This document shows positions 15,456 to 59,277 of a stretch of DNA of 59,277 nt, in pieces. This stretch comes from a virus. Under the pieces are notes generated by a model that ran no database searches, was not told where the DNA came from, and saw only the letters and a program-made list of their open reading frames with translations. Location of the stretch: IMG/VR virus record IMGVR_UViG_3300036901_000095, positions 1 to 59,277 of that record. One strand, given 5' to 3'. Every line of letters begins with the position of its first letter. The stretch's first letter is position 1. A program made the translations under genes and the position numbers.

Positions 15456-15544
15456 GATTTTCGTTTCTTTTTTATGGTGAACTTCAACATAACAGAAACG
15501 CGCCTGAGAATACAACCCCATGAAATATCTGGCTTTAATTCCAC

Positions 15545-15552
15545 CATAAATA
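15545..15552 (+). promoter_or_regulatory. T4-type late promoter box CATAAATA
   Basis: CATAAATA lies 26 bases before the ATG of the first baseplate gene (15579), in the intergenic space that diverges from the gp55-like gene. Confidence 0.7.
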
Positions 15553-15578
15553 GCAAGATACAATGGGATTAAGAACAG

Positions 15579-24947: not shown

Positions 24948-25114
24948 GCTTCAATCTTGACGAGGGTGAACCGGTCGATATCCATGACCTGATCGTGCTG
25001 GTGGAACCGAGCGAGTCCCTTGCGCGGAAATTCGCTGATATGGAAAACTGGCGGGGAGAAATAGCAACGAGTCTTGGCTGGTTTGTGAAGAATGACGACC
25101 CTCGACCCGTCTGA
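24944..25114 (+). CDS. Unknown small protein, MSFNLDEG start
   Basis: 56 residues beginning MSFNLDEGEPVDIHDLIVLV. It starts inside the stop of the upstream gene and its 3' end overlaps the methionine aminopeptidase start by 23 bases in another frame. It is the fourth protein in a row with the F-x-L-D-x start. Confidence 0.55.
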   Translation: MSFNLDEGEPVDIHDLIVLVEPSESLARKFADMENWRGEIATSLGWFVKNDDPRPV

Positions 25115-25877
25115 CTGGGACGGCATGCGAGCCGCTGGGCAACTGGCGGCGCGAGTCCTCGACATGATCCATCCGCACGTCGTTGAAGGTGTCACCACCG
25201 ATCAACTGAACACGCTCTGCCATGACTTCATCATCGCCCATGACGCGATTCCGGCCCCACTGAATTACAAGGACTTCCCAAAATCCATTTGCACGTCGAT
25301 CAATCACGTCGTCTGCCATGGTATCCCGTCCACCCGAAAACTGCTCGATGGTGACATCCTCAACATCGATGTGACGGTGATCCTTAATGGCTGGCATGGT
25401 GATAGCTCGCGCATGTATAGCGTCGGTGATCTATCCACCAAGGCGCGCAATCTGATGGACATCACCTATGAGGCCATGCTGCTCGGCATCGCGGCGGTCA
25501 GGCCCGGTGCCACTCTGGGCGACGTTGGTTTCGCCATACAGAGCTTCGCGGAAAGTCATCGCTACAGCGTGGTGCGGGATTTCTGCGGGCATGGCATTGG
25601 CCGTTTGTTCCACGAACCTCCGCCGATCCTGCATTACGGCAAGCCGAGTCAGGGGCTCGTTTTGCAGCCTGGCATGTTCTTCACCATTGAGCCGATGCTC
25701 AACATCGGTGGCTGGGAGGTCAAGACCCTGGCCGACAAATGGACTTCCGTCACCAAGGATCGGTCATTGTCCGCTCAGTACGAACACACGGTGGGCGTGA
25801 CCGAGACCGGCCATGAGATATTCACTCTTTCTTTCGCAGGATTGCATAAGACGCATGTACCAATTCAAAAAGGGTGA
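25092..25877 (+). CDS. map: Type I methionine aminopeptidase
   Basis: 261 residues, close to E. coli MetAP (264). All five metal ligands are present: D93 (NIDV), D104 (HGDSS), H167 (GHGIG), E200 (TIEPM) and E231 (YEHTV). The enzyme removes the first Met from new proteins in the cytosol. It lies in a late-looking rightward cluster of small proteins, and its start overlaps the preceding gene. It probably speeds maturation of phage proteins or replaces lost host activity. The family call is very safe. Confidence 0.95.
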   Translation: MTTLDPSDWDGMRAAGQLAARVLDMIHPHVVEGVTTDQLNTLCHDFIIAHDAIPAPLNYKDFPKSICTSINHVVCHGIPSTRKLLDGDILNIDVTVILNGWHGDSSRMYSVGDLSTKARNLMDITYEAMLLGIAAVRPGATLGDVGFAIQSFAESHRYSVVRDFCGHGIGRLFHEPPPILHYGKPSQGLVLQPGMFFTIEPMLNIGGWEVKTLADKWTSVTKDRSLSAQYEHTVGVTETGHEIFTLSFAGLHKTHVPIQKG

Positions 25878-26708: not shown

Positions 26709-26716
26709 TATAAATA
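26709..26716 (+). promoter_or_regulatory. T4-type late promoter box TATAAATA
   Basis: A perfect TATAAATA directly follows the HAD stop. No rightward gene follows for about 2 kb, so it points to the structured non-coding stretch at 26717-26870. Confidence 0.65.
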
Positions 26717-26874: not shown

Positions 26875-27183
26875 TTATGTCCGCCCCATGCGGGATAATT
26901 GCATGGCGTCGCGCACCGCGAGGGCGAGGGCCATCATCTCAGTCAGTTCATTTCTGGCTTCCATGTAGGCTCGCGCGCTCTTGGCCGTCTCGGGAAACCG
27001 GTCTTCAAGAATCTTCAGACGTGCTTGGTGTTGCGCTTTCAGATCATCATGGAATTGCATGACATTCGTATATTCCACGGCCTCCGCAATGGTCGCATTC
27101 CAGTCATGATGATCGATCCGCTCCAGATGCCAGATGATGGCATCCTCGCCGCCGATGGGTTCACCTGGAAAATCAGAGATCAT
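26875..27183 (-). CDS. Unknown helical protein
   Basis: 102 residues, mostly helical (IAEAVEYTNVMQFHDDLKAQ and further long helices). The start overlaps the stop of the upstream gene, so it belongs to the leftward small-gene operon. No family is recognised. Confidence 0.6.
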   Translation of the reverse strand: MISDFPGEPIGGEDAIIWHLERIDHHDWNATIAEAVEYTNVMQFHDDLKAQHQARLKILEDRFPETAKSARAYMEARNELTEMMALALAVRDAMQLSRMGRT

Positions 27184-27442
27184 CGATCACACGCACTTCA
27201 TCCATGTTGATGGGAATGCCCTGTCTCTCGCAAGCGTCTGAAAGAAACTGCGTGGCTTGTTTCCTTCCCATCTTATTTCGTAATTTGGTGAGGCGAATAT
27301 CGGTATAGCCTGCTTGTTTCAGATAAGTCGATGCCTTGTCGGATTTTCCCGTGGTGATGAAGATCGGCACGATTTTGCGGCTCTCGGTTTCAATCGCGTG
27401 ACCGACCATGGTCACGTGGATTCCGGTATGCGATATTGACAT
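27173..27442 (-). CDS. Unknown protein with basic C-terminal half
   Basis: 89 residues from ATG 27442, supported by GAGGGAG upstream. MSISHTGIHVTMVGHAIETE is followed by an alpha/beta part with KLRNKMGRKQATQFLSDACE. It overlaps both neighbours. Function unknown. Confidence 0.6.
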   Translation of the reverse strand: MSISHTGIHVTMVGHAIETESRKIVPIFITTGKSDKASTYLKQAGYTDIRLTKLRNKMGRKQATQFLSDACERQGIPINMDEVRVIDDL

Positions 27443-27657
27443 TTTTGACTCCCTCGCAGCGGATGATTCCACGCGTAATAGCTCAATTCATCGAACAATT
27501 GCTTGAGGCTATGACTGATGATGATGAGCGGAAAGATCATGAGGAACATCTGAGCCGCCATGAAACAAAAACGATGCGTGAGAATGTCGACCACCATCCA
27601 GCCTGCGACGGCGCAGGATATGAACAGCTTGATGATGGCGACACCCAACCAAATCAT
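27412..27657 (-). CDS. Membrane protein, two transmembrane segments
   Basis: 81 residues with hydrophobic segments at about 1-25 (MIWLGVAIIKLFISCAVAGW) and 33-50 (MAAQMFLMIFPLIIISHSL), then a polar tail. It is the size of a small holin-like or superinfection protein, but nothing shows a lysis role. It overlaps the next gene by 31 bases. Confidence 0.6.
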   Translation of the reverse strand: MIWLGVAIIKLFISCAVAGWMVVDILTHRFCFMAAQMFLMIFPLIIISHSLKQLFDELSYYAWNHPLRGSQKCQYRIPEST

Positions 27658-27672
27658 GCGTCTTGATCCACC

Positions 27673-28080
27673 TCAGTCGATCTTGTAGTCGCCGGTCCAA
27701 GTCCCCGTGGAACCGGTCGGGGTCTGTTTGTCGGTGAACGTCCCTCCACCGGAGAGATTCTCGAACATACCGGTGCCCCCGATGAATTGCCACTTGCCTT
27801 CCATGATCAACTCTTCTCCCCTCAACCTCACGGTGGCCTCGCTCGTTCCGTAGCTGGTATCACCGGTCGGATGGGTATTTCTGAAGTAGCCTCGCATCGT
27901 GCCATTGCCGCCCACGGTATCAATGATTCCCCACAAGGTCAGTATCGATCCTTCGAACTCCGGCTCGGTCGTTTCCTGCGGGCCGCGCGCCATCATCAAT
28001 CCGATCTGATGATCGGCTGGACCGTTTATCATGGTTTGTGTTTCGATTGTCACCGTGTAGCCGCCATTGAATTTTGGCAT
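27673..28080 (-). CDS. Beta-barrel protein, possibly allene-oxide-cyclase/DUF3224-like
   Basis: 135 residues from ATG 28080, which has GAAGGGG 8 bases upstream; an ATG at 28161 would add 27 residues. The sequence is beta-rich, with WQFIGGTGMFENLSGGGTFT near the C-terminus, a pattern seen in small lipocalin-like barrels (allene oxide cyclase-like, DUF3224). The match is from memory. Function in a phage is unknown. Confidence 0.55.
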   Translation of the reverse strand: MPKFNGGYTVTIETQTMINGPADHQIGLMMARGPQETTEPEFEGSILTLWGIIDTVGGNGTMRGYFRNTHPTGDTSYGTSEATVRLRGEELIMEGKWQFIGGTGMFENLSGGGTFTDKQTPTGSTGTWTGDYKID

Positions 28081-28176
28081 TGTCGGACCCCTTCGTTCAT
28101 GGATGCGGAGAGCGGCGGCAAACTCTCCGATTTCCCACAGATCGTCAACAGATATTCCCATGAGCGAACTCTAAAT

Positions 28177-28689
28177 TTATTCTCGCATCCTGAGACGCAG
28201 GCGTGTCAGATCATCGGGCAGCAATTTCTCGCCATTCCATTCGGCGACGGCGTGTCCGACAGGGATATCCCCGACAGCGTTGATCAGGCTCTCGGCCAGT
28301 TCCAACGCGCCATGATGATAGGGACGCTCGGCGGGGGTTATGACATGCACCAAGCGTTGCCGTACATAGAAACCGAGCCACCCAGACGAGTCAACGATCA
28401 CCAGACCATCATGCGCCTCGGTCCAGTCATGATTGATCTCCTTGGCATCGACCACGGGCGTCCCTGCGGGCATCTCTGAGGCGGTGACGCCTTCGCCGCT
28501 ATCCCAACGCGGCTTCATCCCTGGATGGCCCTGTACGGCCCGCAGGGAGTTGACACAGAGGTATTTGGGACTGAATTTGGCGACGCCTTCGATGCGTTCG
28601 AAATGTTTCCAGCGGATTTCCTCTCCCACCGGTTCGACGACAACGACGCGCTGGCCGATAGTGGCCTCGCTCAACTTGAAAGTTTTCAT
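28177..28689 (-). CDS. Unknown protein
   Basis: 170 residues from ATG 28689 (MKTFKLSEATIGQRVVVVEP), whose start overlaps the upstream stop as ATGA. It is beta-rich in the first half and ends with a basic helix (DDLTRLRLRMRE). No domain is recognised. Confidence 0.6.
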   Translation of the reverse strand: MKTFKLSEATIGQRVVVVEPVGEEIRWKHFERIEGVAKFSPKYLCVNSLRAVQGHPGMKPRWDSGEGVTASEMPAGTPVVDAKEINHDWTEAHDGLVIVDSSGWLGFYVRQRLVHVITPAERPYHHGALELAESLINAVGDIPVGHAVAEWNGEKLLPDDLTRLRLRMRE

Positions 28690-28874
28690 TTTAATGCCGT
28701 TTTCAATGCCTCGCGAACGGAGGCGAACATGATGGGTGGTTTGCGTTTGGCCTTGTCCTGGTCGGCCAGCCGATTGGCGTCGAACGCGGTCATGAATTTG
28801 GACTTCGGAGACGGTCCACTGATGCCGCACCGGCCATGCTTTCGACTGCCAATGCCTCTTGTCTTGAGTTGCAT
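28686..28874 (-). CDS. Small basic protein
   Basis: 62 residues from ATG 28874: MQLKTRGIGSRKHGRCGISG, then a charged helix ending in SVREALKTALK. GGAGG touches the ATG, closer than normal, so the start is uncertain. It is the first gene of a leftward operon with a host-type promoter just upstream. Confidence 0.5.
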   Translation of the reverse strand: MQLKTRGIGSRKHGRCGISGPSPKSKFMTAFDANRLADQDKAKRKPPIMFASVREALKTALK

Positions 28875-28882
28875 CCTCCAGT

Positions 28883-28910
28883 AGTATTCTCCATCAGGTG
28901 AATTTGTCAA
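28883..28910 (-). promoter_or_regulatory. Sigma-70-type promoter of the leftward small-gene operon
   Basis: Perfect TTGACA (28905-28910) and AATACT (28883-28888) are 16 bases apart on the minus strand. The predicted start is next to the ATG at 28874. Confidence 0.5.
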
Positions 28911-28926
28911 TCTTTGGTGACATCTA

Positions 28927-29202
28927 ATGGTCAGAAGCACTCCGATACCGGCGACCCGCGGCCCATGCGGCGTGAACCTGAACATGGCGACCGGCCTGGG
29001 TGGTGCCACGCCAAGTCCTGGCGATTGCACCATCTGTATTACCTGCGACACCATCCTGCTGTTCGACGACAATCTGCTCCTGCATCGAGCGTCGAAGGAA
29101 GAAATCGAAACAATTCCTGATGAGATCAAGGCGTGTTACGCCAAGTACATAGCGTTCAAGAAAACCCATCCATTACCTAACACACGGACGATGAAACATT
29201 AA
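28927..29202 (+). CDS. Small protein with Cys-rich (zinc-ribbon-like) motif
   Basis: 91 residues. GDCTICITCDTILLFDDNLL has Cys pairs (CxxCxxC) followed by a strand and LHRASKEEIETIPDEI, a pattern repeated in small phage proteins. Zinc binding is likely but only two or three Cys are visible. It diverges from the leftward operon. Confidence 0.55.
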   Translation: MVRSTPIPATRGPCGVNLNMATGLGGATPSPGDCTICITCDTILLFDDNLLLHRASKEEIETIPDEIKACYAKYIAFKKTHPLPNTRTMKH

Positions 29203-29390
29203 TTGGCTGGTGGTTCAATCTTGTTCCGTTTTTCCCGGAACATACGGCCCATGACATGAAAAACCTGGTTCCAGATACCGAACAATTTCAGCACACGATC
29301 CAATACGAATAGGCCGCCTTCCAGCAACCCCCACATGGCTGCCGCACAGAACGTCATGAGACCCAGCCACCAGAGCGCGATGTTGATCAT
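29199..29390 (-). CDS. Small membrane protein
   Basis: 63 residues with a long hydrophobic segment (MINIALWWLGLMTFCAAAMW and on to GLFVLDRVL) and a basic tail (MFREKRNKIEPPAN). The start touches the stop of the upstream gene. Function unknown. Confidence 0.6.
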   Translation of the reverse strand: MINIALWWLGLMTFCAAAMWGLLEGGLFVLDRVLKLFGIWNQVFHVMGRMFREKRNKIEPPAN

Positions 29391-29618
29391 CTAGTGTCTC
29401 GTGGTAGTACGTTTCAGTTCATCAAAGATCGTTCTGGTGTTCCCAATTTTGGTTCGGTTCCTCTCATCAAGTGTGATCTCACCATCGGTCGAGAGCGCCT
29501 TGAGGATTTCCTCCTCGGTTTCGAGCAGGCATCCTTCGAGGCTATAATGTCTGATGCCATTCATCAACGCGGCGCGCACGGACGCGACCAGGAGCAGCCC
29601 TTGTTCGAAAGTATCCAT
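29391..29618 (-). CDS. Unknown small helical protein
   Basis: 75 residues (MDTFEQGLLLVASVRAALMN, then an acidic helix and a basic end). AGGAGTGG lies just before the ATG. It ends with TAG next to the membrane-protein start. Function unknown. Confidence 0.6.
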   Translation of the reverse strand: MDTFEQGLLLVASVRAALMNGIRHYSLEGCLLETEEEILKALSTDGEITLDERNRTKIGNTRTIFDELKRTTTRH

Positions 29619-29632
29619 AATCCACTCCTATG

Positions 29633-29665
29633 AAAAGGGCGGCGAATCCTCCGACCTCGCCGCCC
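29633..29665 (-). terminator. Leftward rho-independent terminator
   Basis: On the minus strand GGGCGGCG (29658-29665) pairs perfectly with CGCCGCCC (29637-29644), and TTTT follows. It ends the transcript of the leftward genes at 29.8-31.1 kb. The remaining 140 bases up to 29805 hold only short inverted repeats and no gene. Confidence 0.75.
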
Positions 29666-29805
29666 AGTTCATTGTTGAATTCACATCAGATTAGGTGGCC
29701 ACTTCGGTGCCACTTGTAGGCTTCATGCCATGCCGAAGTCATGGCCCGCATGCGTGACGGTCACTGTAATCAAGTATCTCGAAAGGTCAATGGTCAGCCA
29801 TCGGA

Positions 29806-31107: not shown

Positions 31108-31115
31108 TATTTATA
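31108..31115 (-). promoter_or_regulatory. T4-type late promoter box TATAAATA
   Basis: Perfect TATAAATA on the minus strand, 25 bases before the lipoprotein ATG at 31083. It diverges from a second late box at 31167. Confidence 0.7.
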
Positions 31116-36200: not shown

Positions 36201-36639
36201 CAGCCAGTATCAGATGTTCTCGGACACCATCATCTGGCGACCTGTTAGTTATAAACTCTTGTTCGGCAACGGGGCTGATCCGGAACTGATGGCGCAATTC
36301 AAGGTCGTTCGTCTGGTCAACGCCACGATTTCAGATGGCCAGATTCAGAGCGGCGTGATCACCGCCATCAATACGTTTTTCGCGGTCTCCAACTGGGATT
36401 TTGGCGAGACCTTCTATTACACCGAACTCGCGGCCTATATTCATCAGCAGATGGTTGGCATGATCAGTTCGGTGGTGTTGGTGCCCTTGGCGGCGGACTC
36501 GGCGTTCGGCAATAACTTCGAGACTTCCTGTGATCCGGATGAGATTTTCATTTCGACGGCGACGGTTTCCAATGTGACGATCATCACCTCGAACACGGCG
36601 ACCAATCTGCGGATCAACGCCTCGCCTTTGGGTTCCTGA
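33256..36639 (+). CDS. 6: Baseplate wedge protein gp6-like, very large
   Basis: 1127 residues against 660 in T4. The N-terminus is typical of the family: VSINQALQNYLQINYPENFN, then SSEFVAIIDLLSWLAGTLAF and KTDIAARENFLDTAEAKESV, then RLARFLSYNPSRCQTASGIL. gp6 forms the ring that holds wedges together and drives sheath contraction. The middle (about 480-1000) is a large extra beta-rich part. Late box and ribosome site are clear. The 3' end overlaps the next, leftward gene by 26 bases. Confidence 0.85.
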   Translation: MSATERQTDLFAGELWTVLYQAFPSINFNASDPVSINQALQNYLQINYPENFNDWIISSEFVAIIDLLSWLAGTLAFKTDIAARENFLDTAEAKESVLRLARFLSYNPSRCQTASGILKITAVSTNNDVYDSFGNDLINTTINWNDPNNANWFEQFTYVMNDAFVTTNPFGVPLSQGTVSSIATQLYRVNGLTSNDTLGFSSTVSGVAMDFEVCDGDFLSGGTLFERDPNPNVNAFQLYYLNDNNGYSSSRTGFFLLFKQGSTQSQTFNISIPIENQLLSIAVQNINQTDVWVDTVDDSGNVLIDWTMVPAIFNSNVTYNSIPINQRNIFSVITGTNDQITVRFSDGRFGNAPSGNVKVAYRVSNGLSYQIKAQEINNVQLPVQYINSVTGATQTLTITFGLFEAVSNSAASETIESIRQRAPRVYGTQGRMVSGEDYNAFPLSTNLAVKINAVNRVYSGQSRYIDLHDPTGTYQDLSIFAEDGILFREARDSYFEIPSSLNQTNSQIISGYIQPVITQYTISNVIRDVLLQNTNYVTSTFPTLQWSGGMIDVSPQGLIWTTSNANLFQTTGWFSQTQNLIQPGSIVQFNIAGVPTWVAVIDIQPPINTVPLTDAAGPVTLGQEVPSGSLVLAILPSATVQPSAVLTTVLTQMNLKLSYSLWYDYSNGNSTNGPVWVMNAPASDFGTPEPALVGTQLQIMNVNYIGGIWRITAQGLNYVFESVSDVEWFFNGNTALAAATGEADLDLIRVMRINRNLNDVRGYAFSKDYYFTQDRMWSYPDGTEEARRCVVLLNDSTGDGYPDAPDTLYAVMSSIEQNNYLFWSNAANPPYDLPLYTVVIYDTNTLLQADSTQVIGTVGFQVTSTETFLSDETFWVYNGTIWQQDLNAVYRMERGRGPNVGASWVTRDGVLVPSGDELVFQWKHYAESDHRIDPCTTNIIDIFVLTYSYDSAIRQWITAGAVVANMPTAPSELDLSIAFSALSQYQMFSDTIIWRPVSYKLLFGNGADPELMAQFKVVRLVNATISDGQIQSGVITAINTFFAVSNWDFGETFYYTELAAYIHQQMVGMISSVVLVPLAADSAFGNNFETSCDPDEIFISTATVSNVTIITSNTATNLRINASPLGS

Positions 36640-37111
36640 CTTTTATCTTTTGAATTGACAGGATGGAGGCGGGATTCCAGATGCATCCGCTGGCGCAGTC
36701 CCATGTGAAGTGCCAGGTGAGCAGATTGATCGGACTATCGGTGTATTTTTCCCATGGCGTGATGATCAAACCATCATAGCGTTTGGCTACGTCAACCCAT
36801 GGAAATGGGTGGAACGCCACGTCTTGCAGATTGTCTAGCGTGGTTCCCAGAAATTCGCATACGAATGTCTCGATTTCTTTCACGGTACGCATGATCAACA
36901 CATTGTGACTACGAAACAGACGAATCTCGTAGGCGTGCTTGAATGAGAAATTGGACATCCATCGCAGACTGGTCCCCTTCACATAGTCGGGCCAGGTCAT
37001 GTCCATACTGTCATCGGATACCCACAATCCCCTTGGCTTGTGTTGCCATGGCTGTTGCTCGATCTCGATGATGGGAGGCAGTGGATCGCCCGTGTAGTGG
37101 ACCAGTTTCAT
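36614..37111 (-). CDS. Conserved-looking phage protein, weak ADP-ribosyltransferase-like pattern
   Basis: 165 residues from ATG 37111. It opens MKLVHYTGDPLPPIIEIEQQ, then has KPRGLWVSDDSMDMTWPDYV, YEIRLFRSHNVLIM, YDGLIITPW and ends WDCASGCIWNP. The HYTG...GLWVS layout recalls the H-Y and G-L-Y/W blocks of ADP-ribosyltransferases, but catalytic residues are not certain. Last gene of a long leftward operon, overlapping the upstream stop as ATGA. Confidence 0.55.
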   Translation of the reverse strand: MKLVHYTGDPLPPIIEIEQQPWQHKPRGLWVSDDSMDMTWPDYVKGTSLRWMSNFSFKHAYEIRLFRSHNVLIMRTVKEIETFVCEFLGTTLDNLQDVAFHPFPWVDVAKRYDGLIITPWEKYTDSPINLLTWHFTWDCASGCIWNPASILSIQKIKVRNPKARR

Positions 37112-37461
37112 AGAACGCGGTGGTTCCAATCCTCGGAGGTCATGCTCGGAAGACCAAGAAATCCTTTCACCCCAATGCCTTCGACGAACTTTCCATCGCG
37201 AATCAGACGGGCGATCCGCGCGTGATCGGTCATGGCGTCGGCTTCCGAGGTATGCGGGGCATGATAGCGACCCTCGGTGCCGATCTCTCGAAACACCATG
37301 ACTTCGTAAGGCCATGGGGACGTGTCGGCGAAATCGGAATCCTTGATCAGGCTACCAAGCGGTTGATAATCACTGCCGCCACCGGAGAGGGTGCGGATGG
37401 TGCTGATGTTCCAGGTGCCTTGCGGGCCGGTCACGGTCTCATATTTTAGTTGATCACTCAT
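37108..37461 (-). CDS. Unknown protein
   Basis: 117 residues from ATG 37461 with GGAGA 8 bases upstream. The sequence is mixed alpha/beta (MSDQLKYETVTGPQGTWNIS ... DGKFVEGIGVKGFLGLPSMT). No family is recognised. It is coupled to its downstream neighbour by overlapping codons. Confidence 0.6.
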   Translation of the reverse strand: MSDQLKYETVTGPQGTWNISTIRTLSGGGSDYQPLGSLIKDSDFADTSPWPYEVMVFREIGTEGRYHAPHTSEADAMTDHARIARLIRDGKFVEGIGVKGFLGLPSMTSEDWNHRVL

Positions 37462-37508
37462 GTTCACATTCTCCGTGAGCGGCAGACTATCTTATCTGTT
37501 GGTCGGCA

Positions 37509-38168
37509 TCAACGCGACAGGGCTTCCGCCGCGTTTTTCATCAGCATCCCACGACCGCCCAAGGTCGCCATGATGGCCTGGTCATGGCTGTCATCATCGA
37601 AATCGAGCGTCATCCTCGCCCAGTCCATGAAATCATCGATCTTGCCATTGGCGGCGTCCTGCAACACGCGCCGGTCGTCCGGACTGCGCGACAGCAAGAG
37701 GAACACGGACTTGAGATCATACGCCTGTTGCTTATTGAGAACGTCCTGGGCGGGTGCCTCAGGCTCGTCATCCGGTATCTCGAAGATCGCGTAGTCTTCG
37801 GGCGTCAGGCTCCTGGCGTAGGCCACCAGCTTGTTCACGGCAGTGCCTTCGATGTCATCGTGCTCGCCGATCATGACCAGGCGGATTTCGTTGGTGATTC
37901 CGTAAATGACGATTGCTTTGCCATGGATCAGATGGACCCTGCGCAGGTTCAGGCGGCTGTCGCGCCAGATATTTCCGGCCAGCTTGGCGTCCTTGTTGCC
38001 GTACGGTTCTTCCACACGGGCGGTCTCACGGAACAACAAGAAATCCTTCAGGTTATTCTTGAAGGACGTGTACTTTTTGGCGAATTTGGGATATTCTTTG
38101 AAAAAGCGTTGGGTGGCGACGACAAGGCGTTTCTGTCCGTCTTCCTCGAATAATTCACTCAGGTTCAT
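37509..38168 (-). CDS. RelE/ParE-superfamily toxin-like protein with Alt-like N-terminus
   Basis: 219 residues. The start MNLSELFEEDG resembles T4 Alt (MELITELFDED), whose N-terminus targets it into the prohead and is removed by the head protease. Residues about 12-115 follow the RelE/ParE pattern: helices RLVVATQRFFKEYPKFAKKY, then RRVHLIHGKAIVIYG and RLVMIGEHDDIEG, the fold of mRNA interferases. A helical C-terminal part follows. It lies downstream of a HigA-like antitoxin in the same operon. Toxin activity and packaging are both inference. Confidence 0.55.
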   Translation of the reverse strand: MNLSELFEEDGQKRLVVATQRFFKEYPKFAKKYTSFKNNLKDFLLFRETARVEEPYGNKDAKLAGNIWRDSRLNLRRVHLIHGKAIVIYGITNEIRLVMIGEHDDIEGTAVNKLVAYARSLTPEDYAIFEIPDDEPEAPAQDVLNKQQAYDLKSVFLLLSRSPDDRRVLQDAANGKIDDFMDWARMTLDFDDDSHDQAIMATLGGRGMLMKNAAEALSR

Positions 38169-38328
38169 CGGGCAGGGAATCCAACTTGCGCATGAAGGAT
38201 TCCACGGTGAACTTTTGCTCAGTACCCTCGGTGAGGGTCTCCTGCGCCGCCTCGCGAGCGAGCTTCTGTTCATTGACCTTGCGGCGAATGTCCATGAAGC
38301 GTGCGACGGTGAATCTCCTAAGTGCCAT
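38155..38328 (-). CDS. Unknown small basic protein
   Basis: 57 residues, MALRRFTVARFMDIRRKVNE followed by a charged helix and an acidic end (SLPDEPE). It overlaps the start of the RelE-like gene by 14 bases and the stop of the upstream gene, so it is clearly part of the operon. Function unknown; it could bind the neighbour. Confidence 0.6.
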   Translation of the reverse strand: MALRRFTVARFMDIRRKVNEQKLAREAAQETLTEGTEQKFTVESFMRKLDSLPDEPE

Positions 38329-38608
38329 GTGAAATGCCTTTCTGATATTTAGTTGCTTCGTGCAGCTTGATCGCCATTTTGAGGGTGACTGGAATCTCGG
38401 CCTTCATGTTTCCGTGGAACGCCCGGATCGCTGTGCCGAGGTCGTCCAGCTTATTCCTGAAATGCGCCCGCAGCAGCCAGACATTCTCCCTGCCGTCGAT
38501 GGTCGACGTTTCCTGTGGGTCGGTCAGACCGAGACGCTTGGCGAGCGTGAATTGAACCTCCGGGGCCAGTCGTCTGAATTGCGCGCCGAGGGCGGCGTGA
38601 TTACTCAT
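38318..38608 (-). CDS. Unknown protein next to the HigA-like gene
   Basis: 96 residues from ATG 38608, overlapping the HigA stop. Helical and basic (AALGAQFRRLAPEVQFTLAK; NVWLLRAHFRNKLDDLGTAI). No toxin family is recognised, though this is the usual place of a toxin or antitoxin partner. Confidence 0.6.
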   Translation of the reverse strand: MSNHAALGAQFRRLAPEVQFTLAKRLGLTDPQETSTIDGRENVWLLRAHFRNKLDDLGTAIRAFHGNMKAEIPVTLKMAIKLHEATKYQKGISHGT

Positions 38609-38907
38609 TCGGTTTTCGGCTTGACGAGAACGCGGATCGGCGAACCAAACTCGATGCCTCGATACGCGTCCCACAGGTCGTACTGACGTTGCAGATTGAG
38701 CCAGAATTCCGCCGATGAACTCAATGCCTTGGCGAGACGCAACGCCATGTCCGTGGTGATGTTGCGCTTGGCATTGACGATCTGATTGACCGAATAGCGC
38801 GACACGTTGAGGGCGTCGGCCAGCGTCTCCTGCGTGATATCGTTATCCGTCAGCGCCTTCCGCAGCACCTCGCCGGGATGGATTGGTGGGGGCGCGATCT
38901 TATTCAT
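38605..38907 (-). CDS. higA: HigA-family HTH antitoxin-like regulator
   Basis: 100 residues with the HigA/XRE signature: IHPGEVLRKAL, DITQETLADALNVSRYSVNQ (recognition helix), AKRNITTDMALRLAKAL and SSAEFWLNLQRQYDLWDAYR. HigA proteins bind their own operator and neutralise RelE-like HigB toxins. Here a RelE-like protein is encoded two genes downstream. It might also shield the phage from a host HigB toxin. The family call is firm, the role is inferred. Confidence 0.85.
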   Translation of the reverse strand: MNKIAPPPIHPGEVLRKALTDNDITQETLADALNVSRYSVNQIVNAKRNITTDMALRLAKALSSSAEFWLNLQRQYDLWDAYRGIEFGSPIRVLVKPKTE

Positions 38908-39155
38908 ATCACCGGCCCATCAGTGAATCCCTCGGCCTGTCCATTGACCGTGACCATGTGGGTATCCCAGCCGATCCGGTCATCGCGACCATAGGGCTCG
39001 ACCTTGACCGTCTCCGGCGTCACCGTGCCGTCCAGCGTCGGCCAGTGCGACCGGCTCTCGCGGATGACTTCCAGCAGATGGGCGAAATCACGGACTTCTT
39101 TGACCGTGGCCATGGAGTCCGCGAGCGTGCCCTTATGTTCGCGATACAGCATCAT
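38904..39155 (-). CDS. Unknown protein
   Basis: 83 residues from ATG 39155 with AGAGGAA as ribosome site (MMLYREHKGTLADSMATVKE ... QAEGFTDGPVI). Its stop overlaps the HigA start. No family is recognised. Confidence 0.6.
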   Translation of the reverse strand: MMLYREHKGTLADSMATVKEVRDFAHLLEVIRESRSHWPTLDGTVTPETVKVEPYGRDDRIGWDTHMVTVNGQAEGFTDGPVI

Positions 39156-39322
39156 TTCCTCTTGGCATCGACGATGGCTTGCTCATACATTCCCTGTTTC
39201 ATGATGGCGGGCATGTTCGCCTTCACGTCCTCGGGGATTTCCAACGCGTCTCGCGGAACACCGGCTTGGACGGCTTCCCAGTACCATTCCGCGTATTTTT
39301 TCGTGGTGAGGTCCCATGCTTC
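39152..39322 (-). pseudogene. In-frame continuation after an amber codon, no own start
   Basis: Directly after the TAG at 39323 the same frame continues for 56 codons (EAWDLTTKKYAEWYWEAVQA ...) to a TGA that overlaps the next ATG. It reads as real protein but its first ATG comes only 36 codons in. Together with the upstream 39 residues it would make a 96-residue protein if TAG were read through. Either a recent nonsense mutation or readthrough. Confidence 0.5.
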
Positions 39323-39442
39323 CTAGCGCACCTTGGCACCGAACCGGTGACCGCCCAGATGCGCATCAGCGGCAGCGGCGAGCAGGCCAGCCAAGAGAGA
39401 CAGGACGGCGTATTCCTCGGTCATCTCTCGGTCTTCTGGCAT
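39323..39442 (-). CDS. Short protein ending at amber codon, probably truncated
   Basis: 39 residues: MPEDREMTEEYAVLSLLAGL, then LAAAADAHLGGHRFGAKVR and TAG. The Ala/Leu stretch is helical. The coding signal continues past the stop in the same frame, so the gene was probably longer. GGGGAG lies 12 bases before the ATG. Confidence 0.5.
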   Translation of the reverse strand: MPEDREMTEEYAVLSLLAGLLAAAADAHLGGHRFGAKVR

Positions 39443-39451
39443 TGCGTGTCG

Positions 39452-39997
39452 TTACTCCCCTGATTTGGCGTGGTGATCGAGCCGCATAGTCGTCCACATT
39501 TCCGCGAAGAATGCCTCCATCTGTCGAACGCTTTCCCCATGCGACACCATCTCGACGTTGAACGTCAAGTCGCCGCGTTTCAACTGAACCAATGGCGCGA
39601 ACAAATCCAGCGTCCCATATTCGCCATGCAGCGGTCGAGGCGGAATGACCGAGTGCGTGATGGTGATGAAGTAGCGGATTCCGTCATCATCGGCGAGTCG
39701 CTTCTGATAGGACCCACGATACCAATCGCCCATCCGGCTCGCCGCGTGCGGATCGCTAATTTGCTTATAACGGGCGGCGAGCAGCGTTTCAACGCTCATC
39801 GGTTCCGGCTTCGCGGCCACCTCATATTCCGCGAGGACTTTCTCCGCGCAATGATCCTCCCAAGTCTTGACATCGAACGCAGTCATGCTCGCCAACGCGT
39901 CGTCTTGCAGAACGACCGTCTTGGCGAACCGCTCATTCAGGATCGCGAGGTCACGAACGCTGTAGCCCTCGGTATTGTCCTTGGTGAAGCGTGTCAT
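39452..39997 (-). CDS. Unknown protein
   Basis: 181 residues from ATG 39997, which has AAGGAGGG 5 bases upstream. Alpha/beta mix: LAILNERFAKTVVLQDDALA near the start, a beta region (GIRYFITITHSVIPPRPLHG) and ESVRQMEAFFAEMWTTMRLD at the end. No family is recognised. Confidence 0.65.
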   Translation of the reverse strand: MTRFTKDNTEGYSVRDLAILNERFAKTVVLQDDALASMTAFDVKTWEDHCAEKVLAEYEVAAKPEPMSVETLLAARYKQISDPHAASRMGDWYRGSYQKRLADDDGIRYFITITHSVIPPRPLHGEYGTLDLFAPLVQLKRGDLTFNVEMVSHGESVRQMEAFFAEMWTTMRLDHHAKSGE

Positions 39998-40353
39998 CAA
40001 CCCTCCTTGAAATTCTTCCGCCAGTCCTGGCTGACCCACTCCATCCGGTTGAGCCACCCGGTCTCCACTTCGATGTCCCGGTAGCGGCACTCGGTGACGG
40101 GACCGTGCTTGGAGAAGGTGGCGACGATGCTGTCCAGATATTCCTCGCGGATCGCTTCCATTCCGGTGATGGTAAAGTGATACATCATCGTCGAGCCGCC
40201 GTGCATGTTCGGCAAATAGTATTTCTCGCCCCACGCCATCTTCAGGCCCAGACTTGGCGCGTGCAATCCGCCGATGACCCGCTGAAGCTCATCATTGCCA
40301 TTGAGATCGAACGGCAGGCTGCCTTTGACGAAAACTTCCTTCACATTGCTCAT
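39997..40353 (-). CDS. Unknown protein
   Basis: 118 residues from ATG 40353 with GAGGG 7 bases upstream. MSNVKEVFVKGSLPFDLNGN is followed by beta strands and TGWLNRMEWVSQDWRKNFKE. The stop overlaps the next start. No family is recognised. Confidence 0.65.
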   Translation of the reverse strand: MSNVKEVFVKGSLPFDLNGNDELQRVIGGLHAPSLGLKMAWGEKYYLPNMHGGSTMMYHFTITGMEAIREEYLDSIVATFSKHGPVTECRYRDIEVETGWLNRMEWVSQDWRKNFKEG

Positions 40354-40529
40354 GCGCCAGCCCTCAGACGCCGCATAGTCGTCCGCGCTCTCTTGCTGGC
40401 TTTCGACGGCAGCTTGAGCCAAGAATTGTGCGTCGCGTTTCCCGAATACAGGAACCATCCACGTCCGGACGGAACGTCGGCGACTGGCAGCCACGCGGCC
40501 AACAGGCCAGGGAAGCGAACGGATTTCAT
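40350..40529 (-). CDS. Small basic protein, first gene of the early leftward operon
   Basis: 59 residues from ATG 40529, with AAGGA 7 bases upstream. MKSVRFPGLLAAWLPVADVP is followed by a very basic tail (KLPSKASKRARTTMRRLRAG). It may bind nucleic acid. A host-type promoter lies directly upstream. Confidence 0.55.
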   Translation of the reverse strand: MKSVRFPGLLAAWLPVADVPSGRGWFLYSGNATHNSWLKLPSKASKRARTTMRRLRAGA

Positions 40530-40558
40530 AACCATGTCCTTACGCGATTGCATGACAC

Positions 40559-40587
40559 AGGAATACCATGGAATCGGGTTTTGTCAA
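40559..40587 (-). promoter_or_regulatory. Sigma-70-type promoter of the leftward operon 40.5-36.6 kb
   Basis: Perfect TTGACA (40582-40587) and TATTCC (40559-40564) 17 bases apart on the minus strand. The -10 box is weak, the -35 is ideal. Confidence 0.5.
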
Positions 40588-40626
40588 GATTCTCAGGGAG
40601 AGAAATGTTTGAATAGATGGATGGCC

Positions 40627-45760: not shown

Positions 45761-46174
45761 ATGATTTGTTCATCATGTGAAAAAGACCTAAACGAAACTG
45801 AGTTCTACATAAAAAAGGAAAAAGGAAAGGAAAAAATTGGACACCAAAGCTATTGTAAAAAATGCTTTAATAAATTCTGTGTAGAGAGATGGGTAAAAAG
45901 AAAAAAGGATGCCATTGAGTATAAAGGCGGAAAGTGCGAATTATGCGGGTACAAAAAGTACTATGGTGCATTGGTTTTTCACCATGTTGATCCGATGCAA
46001 AAAGATTTTGAATGGACTCATCTTCGGAAAAAAAGCTGGGATAAAATAAAAGCAGAATTGGATAAATGTATGATGCTATGTTCCAATTGTCACTCAGAAA
46101 TACACGCCAAGGACGCGACAGGTTTCGACATCGAGGCGGGTATGGCGTTGCCGACAGGTCTCGAACCTGCATAA
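45761..46174 (+). CDS. HNH homing-type endonuclease with zinc-finger N-terminus
   Basis: 137 residues. Cys pairs (CSSCEKDLNETEFY, YCKKCFNKFC, CELCGYKK) form zinc sites, and ALVFHHVDP with CMMLCSNCHSEIHA gives the HNH nuclease core. The gene is much richer in A and T than its surroundings, a sign of recent transfer. Its last 32 bases run antisense into the tRNA-Arg gene. Freestanding enzymes of this sort cut DNA to spread themselves. Confidence 0.8.
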   Translation: MICSSCEKDLNETEFYIKKEKGKEKIGHQSYCKKCFNKFCVERWVKRKKDAIEYKGGKCELCGYKKYYGALVFHHVDPMQKDFEWTHLRKKSWDKIKAELDKCMMLCSNCHSEIHAKDATGFDIEAGMALPTGLEPA

Positions 46175-46221
46175 AAAGCCGGATTAGAACTCCGGTGCCT
46201 CTCCAATTAGGCTACGGCAAC
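46143..46221 (-). tRNA. tRNA-Arg (anticodon TCT)
   Basis: The acceptor stem GTTGCCG/CGGCAAC is perfect. The D-arm is GCCT/AGGC, the anticodon stem CCGGA/TCCGG has loop GTTCTAA (anticodon TCT), and the T-arm has GGTTCGAGACC. CCA is encoded. The variable loop is 8 bases, slightly longer than usual. It would read AGA/AGG codons, which are often rare in bacterial hosts. Confidence 0.9.
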
Positions 46222-48145: not shown

Positions 48146-48236
48146 TGGCGCAACCGGTGGGACTCGAACCCACAACGGCCTTTCGGCACCCTCCAGCTTC
48201 GGAGGCTGGCGCTCTGTCCATTTGAGCTACGGCTAC
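48146..48236 (-). tRNA. tRNA-Arg (anticodon CCG) with a long variable arm
   Basis: The acceptor stem is GTAGCCG/CGGTTGC, with two G-U pairs. The D-arm is GCTC/GAGC, the anticodon stem CCAGC/GCTGG has loop CTCCGAA (anticodon CCG), and the T-arm is GTGGG-TTCGAGT-CCCAC. CCA is encoded. The variable region is about 19 bases with its own GCC-GAAA-GGC hairpin, a class II form normally found in Leu, Ser and Tyr tRNAs. It would read CGG. Confidence 0.85.
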
Positions 48237-48617: not shown

Positions 48618-48693
48618 TGGTGCCAGTTGCAGGGATCGAACCCACGACATCCCCATTACGGGTGGGGTGCTCTACCAACTGAGCTAAACTGGC
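48618..48693 (-). tRNA. tRNA-Thr (anticodon CGT)
   Basis: 76 bases. The acceptor stem GCCAGTT/AACTGGC is perfect, the D-arm is GCTC/GAGC, the anticodon stem CCCCA/TGGGG has loop CCCGTAA (anticodon CGT), the T-arm has GGGTTCGATCCC, and CCA is encoded. It reads ACG. Confidence 0.92.
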
Positions 48694-48745: not shown

Positions 48746-48822
48746 TGGGGTCCTCGGAGAGATTTGAACTCCCAGCCTTGGCGTCCGTAGCGCCACGCTC
48801 TGTCCAGTTGAGCTACGAGGAC
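48746..48822 (-). tRNA. tRNA-Arg (anticodon ACG)
   Basis: 77 bases. The acceptor stem GTCCTCG/CGAGGAC is perfect, the D-arm is GCTC/GAGC, the anticodon stem TGGCG/CGCCA has loop CTACGGA (anticodon ACG), the T-arm has GGAGTTCAAATCTCT, and CCA is encoded after a C discriminator. It reads CGT, and CGC/CGA if A34 is deaminated. Confidence 0.92.
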
Positions 48823-48944: not shown

Positions 48945-48975
48945 TATTTATAAGACAAGGGCCGGAGAGTGTCAA
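48945..48975 (-). promoter_or_regulatory. Strong sigma-70 promoter of the tRNA cluster, overlapping a late box
   Basis: Perfect TTGACA (48970-48975) and TATAAA (48947-48952) 17 bases apart, reading towards the tRNAs. TATAAATA (48945-48952) overlaps the -10, so both host polymerase and the late sigma factor could use it. The 120 bases down to the first tRNA hold no gene. Confidence 0.75.
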
Positions 48976-49533: not shown

Positions 49534-51375
49534 TCAATTGCCGCCGAAGGCACCGATATTCCAGCCGCTGCCGGTTGAGTTCGGTTCGCTGGTACCATAG
49601 AAATCGAGCACGGGGTTGATGGTCGTCACGCTGAGCGAGGAAGGCGCAACGCCGACACCGAGCAATGGCGATCCACCTCCCAGTGCGTAGCCGGAAGGCA
49701 ATGTCTGATTACCGGTGGCGTTCCAGGACACCGTGCCAGCGGGCACGGTTCCCACGAAGCCAGGATTGCTTGTCGTGCCTCCAGTTTCTGCTGTTCGGGT
49801 TTCCCATTGCGCCAATGAGCCACTGGGCGCGGAAGCCGAGCCACAGTTCGGATCGACTCTGACGGTGGTGCCCCCATTGATCGCGAAATAGCTGTTGTTG
49901 CGCCACGTTCCAACCGGAGTCAGCGCCGGGTTACAGGTGACCGCGTAATTTCCCGAGGTGTAGGCGAAGATATTGTCGGCGATGACCGATCCGGCACCGA
50001 TGCCATTGGAGCCGTTCTGAGTCGCGAGCACGAGCGCGCCACGTCCAGCAAGGCTTGAGTTCTGGTAAATGGTATTGCCATAGGCATAGACGACGCAGGC
50101 AGTGCAACCCGTGTTATTGAATGACATTCCACCGAAAAACTCTTGCGGATTATCCTCAACGATGTAGGCGTCATTTTCACTGATGTTGCCGCGATAGGTG
50201 TTGTTGGTCCAGTCACTGGTGACGACTCCCATCCAGCCATAAAGTCCTGCTCCGGCGTTGTTATGGGTGTAATTGTACTCCACCACGCTGTTCGTGGTTG
50301 ATCCATCGAGATCAATTCCGTCGCCGTCACAACCGGTGGTCATGTTGATCGCTGTATTATAAACTTCGTTGCTGGAAATCGTGACATTTGAAACATCCTG
50401 GGTTTCTATTCCCGATGTGCCGCCGCATTGCGTGGTCTGATTGTATCCGCTGTCATGCACGATGTTGTTCGTGATCAGTATCGTGCCACTGTGAGAATGG
50501 ACTATGTTCATGCCTTCACCGCCGAACACATTCAGAAACGATGGCCGACCGCCGAAATTCGAAAGCACGTTGCCAGAGACAATAATGTTTCCGGTTGATC
50601 CGTTGATCTGCACACCGTCATCATCTAGCGCCGCTGTCGTCAGTCCATGCAGCACGTTGTCGGCGATGACGACATTGCCGCTCGAATCAGTGCGGGTGGC
50701 CGAGGTGATGTCTCCGCCGCCAATCGTCTCACCGTTGGCGACGAAAAATCCACCGATGTCATTCCCGTTCACCGATCCGGTCGACGCACCGGTCACATAG
50801 ACGCCAGCGGTGGTGCAGTTAGCGCCAGCGCCACTTGGACAGGTGCCTGATATGCCAGAGCGGATGGTGAGATTCTGAACGACGAAACCGTTGACCGAAT
50901 TCACCAGGACAGTGGAACTGATGTCTCCCCCGGTGTTGGACTGAAGAATCGCGTTGCCTGTGCCATAGGATTGCACGACTATTGGATTGTTTGGCGAGGC
51001 ACCAGTAACATTCACGGTCGATGGAGTCGGGGAGCAAATCGAACACGAATTGACTGTGCTTAAGACGAGATTTCCGGAGAAAGTCTGCCCACCATTGAAG
51101 TTAATGCATTGACCAGCCGTGAAACTGGAGAAACTGCTGACATGCGCGATGGTTTGCCATGCGGTCGCGGGGGACAGTCCGTTCGCTGAATCGGAACCAG
51201 AATTTGACACATAGTATTGCGTACCCACGCAAGTGGAGGTTGGCGGGACGCTCATTTGCGCGGCAAAACCCGCTGGCAGTCCGATTTGCGCGCTTGCTCT
51301 CTCGACGGGCAGTACCGATAATGATAATGATGCCGTAATCATCACAATCGCGATGACGGCCAATTTCCTAAACAT
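49534..51375 (-). CDS. Secreted right-handed beta-helix protein (pectate-lyase-like)
   Basis: 613 residues. A Sec signal peptide (MFRKLAVIAIVMITASLSLS, cleavage near ASA) is followed by TQYYVSNSGSDSANGLSPAT, the usual opening of parallel-beta-helix proteins, then many coils such as GNVVIADNVLHGL, GNIIVSGNVLSNF and SNVTISSNEVYNT. The family includes polysaccharide lyases and carbohydrate-binding proteins. Catalytic residues cannot be named. A leftward late box lies 26 bases upstream. Phage depolymerases are normally virion spikes without a signal peptide, so export from the infected cell is unusual. Confidence 0.75.
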   Translation of the reverse strand: MFRKLAVIAIVMITASLSLSVLPVERASAQIGLPAGFAAQMSVPPTSTCVGTQYYVSNSGSDSANGLSPATAWQTIAHVSSFSSFTAGQCINFNGGQTFSGNLVLSTVNSCSICSPTPSTVNVTGASPNNPIVVQSYGTGNAILQSNTGGDISSTVLVNSVNGFVVQNLTIRSGISGTCPSGAGANCTTAGVYVTGASTGSVNGNDIGGFFVANGETIGGGDITSATRTDSSGNVVIADNVLHGLTTAALDDDGVQINGSTGNIIVSGNVLSNFGGRPSFLNVFGGEGMNIVHSHSGTILITNNIVHDSGYNQTTQCGGTSGIETQDVSNVTISSNEVYNTAINMTTGCDGDGIDLDGSTTNSVVEYNYTHNNAGAGLYGWMGVVTSDWTNNTYRGNISENDAYIVEDNPQEFFGGMSFNNTGCTACVVYAYGNTIYQNSSLAGRGALVLATQNGSNGIGAGSVIADNIFAYTSGNYAVTCNPALTPVGTWRNNSYFAINGGTTVRVDPNCGSASAPSGSLAQWETRTAETGGTTSNPGFVGTVPAGTVSWNATGNQTLPSGYALGGGSPLLGVGVAPSSLSVTTINPVLDFYGTSEPNSTGSGWNIGAFGGN

Positions 51376-51418: not shown

Positions 51419-51916
51419 CTATCGCAGTTTATTTTGCTTACATTTTCCGAAATGAAGCCGAGCCATCATGGCTTTTTGCCCGATCTTACCACAATGCGGG
51501 CAAGTCGTTTTTGCAGCAAAAGGATGTGTTCCATTTTCGATGCAGCGACGCTGTATTTCTCCACCCAATAAATGGTGCGTCCCATCTGCTAATCGACGCT
51601 GAGTCTGTATCCGTGATATTTGACCCCCTAAGAAATTATGAGTGCCGTTTTCTATCTGTTGTCGAGCGGTTTTTCTTGCTAAATCACTTATAACTTCTGG
51701 ACTTGATTTCAATCGGAACGTCATTATCAAACAAGCTTTCCAATCATCTTGAGCGTAATGAATATCGTAATGCTCTTGTACGGTGATAGCTTTTAAGTTT
51801 GAAGGATCGTGATTTTTGTGATTTCCGTCTACGTGATGAATATCGTAGGATTTTCCATCTGGCTCTCTCGGTATTGGGCCATAATGTTGCTCATATATTT
51901 TACGGTATTTTGACAT
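51419..51916 (-). CDS. HNH homing endonuclease with NUMOD-like repeats
   Basis: 165 residues from ATG 51916. IHHVDGNHKNHDPSNLKAIT and YDIHYA form the HNH core. Three repeats of x-x-GTH-x-x-LGG type (ENGTHNFLGG, ADGTHHLLGG, ENGTHPFAAK) are DNA-binding modules of intron-type endonucleases, and CPHCGKIGQKAMMARLHFGKC is a zinc finger. The longer frame upstream of 51916 lies inside the RNase P RNA and is rejected. A GATAAATA box ends 4 bases before the ATG. It sits directly behind rnpB. Confidence 0.82.
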   Translation of the reverse strand: MSKYRKIYEQHYGPIPREPDGKSYDIHHVDGNHKNHDPSNLKAITVQEHYDIHYAQDDWKACLIMTFRLKSSPEVISDLARKTARQQIENGTHNFLGGQISRIQTQRRLADGTHHLLGGEIQRRCIENGTHPFAAKTTCPHCGKIGQKAMMARLHFGKCKQNKLR

Positions 51917-51928: not shown

Positions 51929-51941
51929 AAAAGGAGAGAGT

Positions 51942-52378
51942 GGATCACTGTTTCTATAAGCTGGGTTCTGTCCAGAATCTTTCGATTCCTGTACTGTCAT
52001 TCCTCTTGCCTAAACCGTCGCCGGTCAGGTCTTTGCCCTCAACCCGGAACCATCCCCTGACGATGGGTAGCAAGTTCCCTATTTGAGGTTGCACCCTCTA
52101 TCCTGTCGCCAGCGTTTCACCCCATCTCCTGTGATCAGGCAGTTGGCCGGATTACCTCTAAGTCTTTCGACCTGGCGTTCTCCAGTTTCCTGTCCATGAC
52201 ATGGCGAATATTATCTCCCGAAGGAGTTTCATCCCTTCCTCAGGCGGGTCTCGTCTCTGTGGCCGTGTCTCACCTCTCGGTGGGCAGGTGTTACCTGCTA
52301 AAGTTCGTCAGCGGTGCCCAGACTTTCCTCTCTACCATCATTGCTGATGGCACGAGCGACAATCCAAAACAGTGATCC
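51942..52378 (-). ncRNA. rnpB: RNase P RNA (type A)
   Basis: 437 bases. A perfect 12-bp P1 helix pairs GGATCACTGTTT (52378-52367) with AAACAGTGATCC (51953-51942). The universal P4 element AGAGGAAAGTC is at 52331-52321, followed by GCAGGTAACACCTGC and CACAGAGACGAGACCCGCC. The 3' part has CAAATAGGGAAC, AGGAATGACAG and GACAGAACCCAGCTTATAG. These match E. coli rnpB in order and spacing. RNase P RNA is the catalytic part of the enzyme that trims the 5' ends of tRNAs. E. coli rnpB has 377 bases, so this one carries extra loops. No protein subunit gene (rnpA) is seen here. Confidence 0.93.
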
Positions 52379-52385
52379 AAGGAAA

Positions 52386-52414
52386 CACATAGATGATTTT
52401 TTCTTTATAGACAA
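52386..52414 (-). promoter_or_regulatory. Sigma-70-type promoter of rnpB
   Basis: TTGTCT (52409-52414) and TATGTG (52386-52391), 17 bases apart on the minus strand; the expected start falls at the 5' end of the P1 helix. Confidence 0.5.
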
Positions 52415-58855: not shown

Positions 58856-59277
58856 ATGCCAACCATTGATTCTCGTCGACAAGTCCCCCAGGTTCTCGAT
58901 GATGTGCGTCTTTATGTCCTGATACGAACTGACCTCAATAGCATGAATCGTGGCAAGGCTTGTGCTCAGGCCACGCACGCCGCGAACAAATGCGTCTACG
59001 ACATTCGCCAGTCCGGCGATGAATGGCTACACGAGCTACTCCGGTCCTGGGAAGGTAACCGGGGATTTGGCACCGCCGTGATTTTGGATGGCGGGTCTGG
59101 CAACATGATGACGAAGATTTATTGGAATTTGAAGGACGCTGGACATCACGCGGCCATCGTTCATGATTCCGGCTATCCGTTGTCGGACGGCAAATTCACC
59201 CATCAAATCCCTGTTGATACCTGCGTCTATGTCTTTGGTGAGAAGAGTCGGCTCGAATCTTTCCTGGGCAATCTGCA
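58856..59277 (+). CDS. Peptidyl-tRNA hydrolase 2-like protein (3' end outside window)
   Basis: The 140 visible residues include LYVLIRTDLNSMNRGKACAQ and ATHAANKC, the G-K-x-x-A-Q-x-x-H-A core of PTH2, then FGTAVILDGG and PVDTCVYVFGEK. PTH2 enzymes free tRNA from stalled peptidyl-tRNA. This type is usual in archaea and eukaryotes and is seen in some phages, whereas bacteria rely on the unrelated Pth1. The gene runs off the right edge. Confidence 0.8.
   Translation, partial: MPTIDSRRQVPQVLDDVRLYVLIRTDLNSMNRGKACAQATHAANKCVYDIRQSGDEWLHELLRSWEGNRGFGTAVILDGGSGNMMTKIYWNLKDAGHHAAIVHDSGYPLSDGKFTHQIPVDTCVYVFGEKSRLESFLGNL

Follow-up and report, generated by a model that had tools for sequence, protein, structure and literature searches.

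A full-length class A RNase P RNA gene in a phage genome fragment and its recurrence in large viral contigs

The minus strand of a 59,277-base virus fragment (IMG/VR record IMGVR_UViG_3300036901_000095, positions 1 to 59,277, analysed whole and referred to below as the window) encodes a full-length class A RNase P RNA, the product of an rnpB gene carried by the phage itself. This identification rests on a covariance model, on covariation among viral RNAs and on the presence of phage genes on both flanks. When every Rfam family was searched for in the window with cmscan, five matches were returned, namely four tRNAs and one RNase P RNA. The latter matched RF00010 (RNaseP_bact_a) untruncated, over model positions 1-367 of 367, with a score of 144.2 bits (E 2.2e-44; gathering score 100), and thus exceeded the curated cut-off across the full length of the model. 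The initial annotation, made from the sequence alone, had proposed a complete type A RNase P RNA on the leftward strand with a perfect 12-bp P1; the covariance model confirmed the proposal, and the P1 pairing, the P4 element and the conserved segments that had been quoted are all present in the window sequence. The elements of the RNA are as follows.

51941-52375, minus strand: rnpB, class A RNase P RNA (RF00010 and covariation); P1 reaches 51942-52378
52367-52378, minus strand: P1 5' strand, forming 12 perfect pairs with 51942-51953 (52378-52367 with 51953-51942)
51942-51953, minus strand: P1 3' strand, varying in sequence among relatives with pairing retained
52317-52325, minus strand: P4 5' strand, AAG[U]CUGGG with the bulged U, pairing with CCCAGCUU
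51958-51965, minus strand: P4 3' strand, CCCAGCUU (sequence and covariation)
52306-52311, minus strand: P6 5' strand, CUGACG, pairing with CGUCAG in L17 (from sequence)
52057-52062, minus strand: P6 3' strand, CGUCAG in L17, a perfect 6 bp with CUGACG (from sequence)
52116-52250 (approximate limits), minus strand: P11/P12 region with an enlarged P12, the absence of P13/P14 lying directly 3' (RF00010 alignment)
52037-52088, minus strand: P15-P16-P17 with the L15 GGU motif (RF00010 alignment and sequence)

The long-range helix P4, with its bulged U, stands next to GAGGAAAGUC and AGAACCC-GCUUA, and both CAAATAGGG and AGAACCCAGCTTATAG were found in the RNA. The L15 GGU motif, which binds the CCA ends of tRNAs, is retained as CCGGGUUG in P15/P16, P16 and P17 are both present beside the 6-bp P6, and free folding of the RNA gave z = -3.6. 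With the bacterial class A RNA (M1 RNA, rnpB) the window RNA shares P1-P9 and P15-P18 (P6 and P17 as read from the window alone), the bulged U of P4 and the L15 GGU, together with the motifs ACAGA, GGGUGAAA, GCAA and AGAACCC-GCUUA. It differs from that RNA in being phage-encoded without a detected RnpA gene, in an additional hairpin ahead of the P4 3' strand (labelled P19), and in the two features that also set it apart from the E. coli RNA: P13/P14 of the class A consensus are missing, with 2 nt where the model has 43 positions, and P12 carries an insert of ~100 nt beyond consensus, so that 129 nt separate the core motifs ACAGAGACGA and GGTGAAACG. Loss of P13/P14 has been reported for various bacteria, including many species of the candidate phyla radiation (CPR) (PMC8172020), and P13/P14 are thus not class-defining. 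The window RNA has this absence in common with those bacterial RNAs, but it keeps P12, P16, P17, P18 and the GGU, and its primary sequence is nearer to viral RNAs. The ACAGAGACGA..GGTGAAACG core arrangement also occurs in Burkholderiales, Omnitrophota and CPR genomes.

To assess the fold, RNase P RNAs of 17 other viral contigs were aligned with that of the window, and pairs were counted for the named helices P1-P9 and P15-P19 with the structure taken from the window RNA. Across these 18 RNAs, 79.1% of cells were paired, against 57.9% after shuffling and 36-42% with slid partners, and the covariation score was 0.499 against 0.167 shuffled and 0.10-0.16 slid. Pairing in P4 and P2, the regions singled out initially as the place where a false call would fail, stood at 99.3% and 98.9%, with two-sided changes in five of the eight P4 pairs; P5, P7 and P8 followed at 97.2%, 95.6% and 95.4%. 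P1 differs widely in sequence between relatives and still pairs over 6-15 bp, and core positions are invariant throughout the viral set. The percentages of pairing are biased upward because the helices were defined from the window; such a bias does not readily account for the two-sided changes. The P6 pseudoknot with P16/P17 separates class A from class B, but the columns of P6 (~37% paired) and P17 (26-44%) align poorly across the set, and covariation of P6 is not established because of the poor alignment of J5/7 and L17. Taken together, the covariation strongly supports a fold under long-term structural selection.

Phage genes lie on both sides of rnpB. Among the products of the fragment are a baseplate wedge protein of the T4 type (phrog_10646, E 4e-301), a hub lysozyme, a late sigma factor and virion proteins, while the other flank of rnpB carries genes for a PTH2-type peptidyl-tRNA hydrolase, for phage-family proteins and for a segment of a phage DNA polymerase (phrog_11127). 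The baseplate, late sigma factor and virion genes that mark a T4-like jumbo myovirus are therefore all found in the window. Among named phages, the wedge protein is closest to those of Sinorhizobium phage Phosso (a 469-kb genome; 41% identity) and Agrobacterium phage Atu_ph07 (490 kb; 40%), followed by phages of the RaK2/121Q type, and since Phosso and Atu_ph07 are nearest, the contig is probably a fragment of a T4-like jumbo myovirus of several hundred kilobases. RF00010 was absent from all six named jumbo relatives tested (Phosso, Atu_ph07, XbC2, RaK2, 121Q and GAP32).

The initial annotation implied that such a gene was unique to this phage, which proved wrong, as rnpB recurs in large viral contigs. 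Two conserved rnpB motifs each matched at least 120 viral contigs, and RF00010 scans of records yielded 17, 23 and 9 contigs reaching the cut-off, with five more found via a motif shared with the window. At least 54 IMG/VR contigs besides the window score at least 100 bits, of which at least 26 are 90 kb or longer. Terminase models matched several of the rnpB-bearing contigs, including ones of 369 kb and 378 kb; as a phage marker, however, the Pfam terminase models matched only 7 of 39 and 5 of 42 contigs, so that the viral status of many rests on IMG/VR classification, size and gene context. A bacterial origin is probable for some of the rnpB contigs, especially small ones in which a 334-bit match is located close to an end. 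Blastn with the window RNA found no match among the isolated phage records of INPHARED. With five other viral rnpB sequences joined into one query, the same search matched two Acinetobacter records and a Salmonella chromosome and nothing else; in the one Acinetobacter record that was inspected the matched stretch adjoins bacterial housekeeping genes such as coaD, which fits host DNA.

The nearest RNA found lies on a 146.7-kb viral contig (IMGVR_UViG_2623620416_000002, here L308 and also listed as L062) and scored 56.5 bits in an nhmmer comparison in which no bacterial locus exceeded 27 bits. Like the window RNA it has no P13/P14, a similarly large P12 (124 against 129 nt) and an adjacent HNH gene. 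It differs in that only part of its sequence aligns well, the HNH gene is upstream rather than downstream, and its contig holds 26 tRNA genes. When 26 viral RNAs and 50 bacterial ones were placed in a tree built on 250 columns, the window RNA grouped with those of L337, L485 and L308 (support 93) within an all-viral clade of 13 (support 87), and the remaining viral RNAs were placed elsewhere; the bacterial set had been chosen for a core motif resembling that of the window, which makes the test hard at that point and the sample unbalanced. This limited tree suggests one viral lineage plus separate acquisitions. A recent capture from an alphaproteobacterium was considered and rejected, as a blastn search through 385 genomes, all from the class to which a Hyphomicrobiales genome (G169) belongs, turned up nothing beyond short stretches of the core, 39 bits at best; the donor may belong to another class.

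The window carries four tRNA genes on the same strand as rnpB.

48746-48822, minus strand: tRNA-Arg (ACG), CCA encoded
48618-48693, minus strand: tRNA-Thr (CGT), CCA encoded
48146-48236, minus strand: tRNA-Arg (CCG), CCA encoded
46143-46221, minus strand: tRNA-Arg (TCT), from the Rfam scan

All four genes that had been described as lying near rnpB are thus real, but at 3.1-5.8 kb they are not adjacent to it. The encoded CCA ends, read in three of them, fit the retained L15 GGU. A role in processing phage tRNAs, as suggested initially, draws support from outside the window, from related RNAs in tRNA arrays and from the tRNA genes of other records. In five contigs (L460, L466, L471, L481 and L494) rnpB is part of a dense tRNA array, only 1-13 nt separating it from tRNA genes, and tmRNA is close to it in L460 and L481. 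tRNA genes were present in all 42 records tested (3-69 each), a few of which have an RNase P match below the curated cut-off; of 47 records in which RF00010 had no match, 20 carried tRNA genes. Among records of at least 300 kb, tRNA density was higher where rnpB was present (medians 14.0 against 8.0 per 100 kb; 7 against 10 records, p 1e-4), the comparison records having been recruited via a baseplate gene or chance motif hits and forming a convenience sample. The tRNA and tmRNA arrays of jumbo phages are likewise phage-encoded RNAs of translation, from which RNase P RNA differs in being a processing ribozyme and not a substrate of translation.

Two further observations concern these arrays. 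In L460, tRNA genes abut rnpB (1605-1878) on both sides, one overlapping it by a base and the other 1 nt off, and the ends of this RNA may be generated by tRNA processing itself. More divergent viral RNase P RNAs, under the cut-off, were seen in many-tRNA arrays at 4001-4338 of L489 (94 bits) and 2520-2856 of L494 (91 bits).

The protein partner RnpA (PF00825) was not found in the window fragment or in 38 other viral records (39 in total), nearly all of them with an RNase P RNA match and including contigs of 369-463 kb, while the same model recovered RnpA in 10 of 10 control bacteria. A partner supplied by the host is hence the simplest assumption.

We consider it likely that the window RNA is an active ribozyme that joins host RnpA and raises the maturation of phage tRNAs. 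On this proposal the RNA would be transcribed in the course of infection, fold into the usual P4-centred catalytic core and form a hybrid RNase P together with RnpA (C5) of the host, the RNA coming from the phage and the protein from the host; the hybrid enzyme would then add 5'-end processing capacity for phage pre-tRNAs while the phage sustains translation. We infer expression, binding of host RnpA, catalysis and benefit to the phage from the full class A fold, its covariation, the core and CCA-binding motifs, the phage location, the recurrence often in tRNA arrays and the lack of an encoded RnpA. The genes for a methionyl aminopeptidase and PTH2 in the window were also counted toward a translation-related role. 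Several points weigh against the proposal. The RNA has lost P13/P14 and gained an enlarged P12; the window has only four tRNAs, all of them kilobases from rnpB; RnpA may have been missed, since many of the records cover part of a genome and PF00825 would not recognise a divergent form; and tRNA-rich jumbo relatives (5-57 tRNAs) without an RNase P RNA exist, the six tested relatives lacking it indicating that the RNA is not required for phage tRNA use generally.

More tentatively, though still plausibly, the gene could be seen as a translation module that recurs among large tailed phages, is adapted to them and was taken up several times, with the window group as a phage-only lineage lacking P13/P14. 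The RNA would again form a hybrid ribozyme with host RnpA; it would often sit in tRNA arrays, from which its transcript would be freed by tRNA processing, and it would be targeted or spread by adjacent homing endonucleases.

A different selective reason for the same molecule, and the second option of the initial annotation, would be replacement, the host RNase P RNA being shut off, degraded or outlived and the phage copy sustaining tRNA processing in its stead. A phage RNA without RnpA is what would be expected if the RNA is the labile part and the host protein persists, and the T4-like gene set is consistent with this; however, no candidate nuclease or inhibitor directed at host rnpB was identified, and sequence cannot tell replacement from supplementation. 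We regard replacement as unlikely.

The gene that adjoins rnpB raises another alternative.

51419-51916, minus strand: HNH endonuclease gene, homing-type, 165 aa (PF13392, E 1e-9; phrog_12324, intron-like DNA endonuclease, E 2e-35)

It starts 24 nt past the end of the rnpB match and, because its GC content at third codon positions (GC3, 0.33) differs from that of the other genes checked (0.62-0.71), it is probably a recent arrival. An HNH gene (PF01844) also borders rnpB in L308, and in L480 an HNH-like ORF with no Pfam match begins ~20 nt after it. On this view rnpB might be neutral or weakly useful cargo, spread and kept by the adjoining homing endonuclease, whose foreign codon composition and repeated association fit such a picture. 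Yet the strong covariation attests to long-term selection on the structure of the RNA, and many viral rnpB copies are within tRNA arrays. Homing endonucleases usually adjoin conserved functional genes, so adjacency to an HNH gene is no sign of uselessness, and we hold rnpB as mere cargo to be improbable.

That the RNA acts as a decoy or modulator, titrating host RnpA or redirecting the specificity of RNase P in place of ordinary added activity, would agree with the want of an encoded RnpA and with the altered architecture. This too is improbable in our view, as a decoy would need neither a catalytic P4 with a bulged U nor the substrate contact of the L15 GGU, both of which the RNA retains, and the tRNA-array setting in relatives favours processing. 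Bacterial contamination or chimeric assembly, to which the lack of close relatives of the contig among isolated phages and the resemblance of some IMG/VR contigs with rnpB near an end (~334 bits) to bacterial chromosome might point, was rejected as extremely improbable, since rnpB sits between the T4-like baseplate and late sigma factor genes on one side and the polymerase segment and phage-family genes on the other, the best match among the 385 genomes from that one bacterial class was 39 bits, and the window RNA groups with viral RNAs in the limited tree.

The surroundings of rnpB were also scanned for signals. No sigma-70 promoters or intrinsic terminators were found around the gene by consensus scan. 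One candidate late promoter lies upstream of it.

52402-52409, minus strand: TATAAAGA, a 7/8 match to the T4 late promoter TATAAATA, weak evidence for a promoter

The exact motif TATAAATA occurs three times in the window, against 0.23 expected: at 26709-26716 (plus strand), 31108-31115 (minus) and 48945-48952 (minus), one of these sites being ~120 nt upstream of the tRNA-Arg (ACG) gene. The late sigma factor-like protein (13605-15593, minus) is seemingly split by an intein, with sigma matches at residues 105-225 and 555-647 and a match to the intein N-terminal model at 221-291 that scores under its cut-off. The translation-related genes are a type I methionyl aminopeptidase (25092-25877, plus; TIGR00500, 304 bits) and the PTH2-type hydrolase (58856-59275, plus), which is interrupted by the contig end. 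Elsewhere the fragment has three N6/N4 DNA methylase genes (5845-6834, minus; 6824-7750, minus; 10860-11945, plus) and a HigA-family antitoxin gene (38605-38907, minus; TIGR02607, 99 bits), no HigB toxin being recognised in the neighbouring ORF tested. A 613-aa protein (49534-51375, minus) has a signal-peptide-like start and a weak beta-helix match with no PHROG, and in 26900-29800 and 36600-40600 the few ORFs tested gave nearly no family matches, so that these stretches are possibly non-coding or of unusual sequence.

RNase P RNA, a ribozyme as old as almost any known, counts as a gene of cells, and the translation-related equipment known from phages comprises tRNAs, tmRNA, CCA-adding enzymes and tRNA ligases. 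Full-text searches of an open-access library, from which subscription journals and preprints are largely missing, brought up no description of an RNase P RNA in a phage, though earlier reports may exist. RNase P is unmentioned in a paper on huge phages (PMC7162821), and an overview of jumbo phages that treats tRNA ligases and CCA-adding enzymes mentions neither ribonuclease P nor tRNA processing (PMC7824862). For Sinorhizobium phage AP-J-162 one unspecified 'misc RNA' is listed (PMC11242549). The molecule is already known in kind, and what appears to be new is its phage-encoded form without P13/P14 and without RnpA. If it is active, the takeover of translation by phages would extend to the maturation of tRNA, and nature would hold RNA-only variants of RNase P that are obliged to work with a foreign protein. 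With such phage variants, how far RNA and protein of RNase P remain compatible could be put to a direct test.
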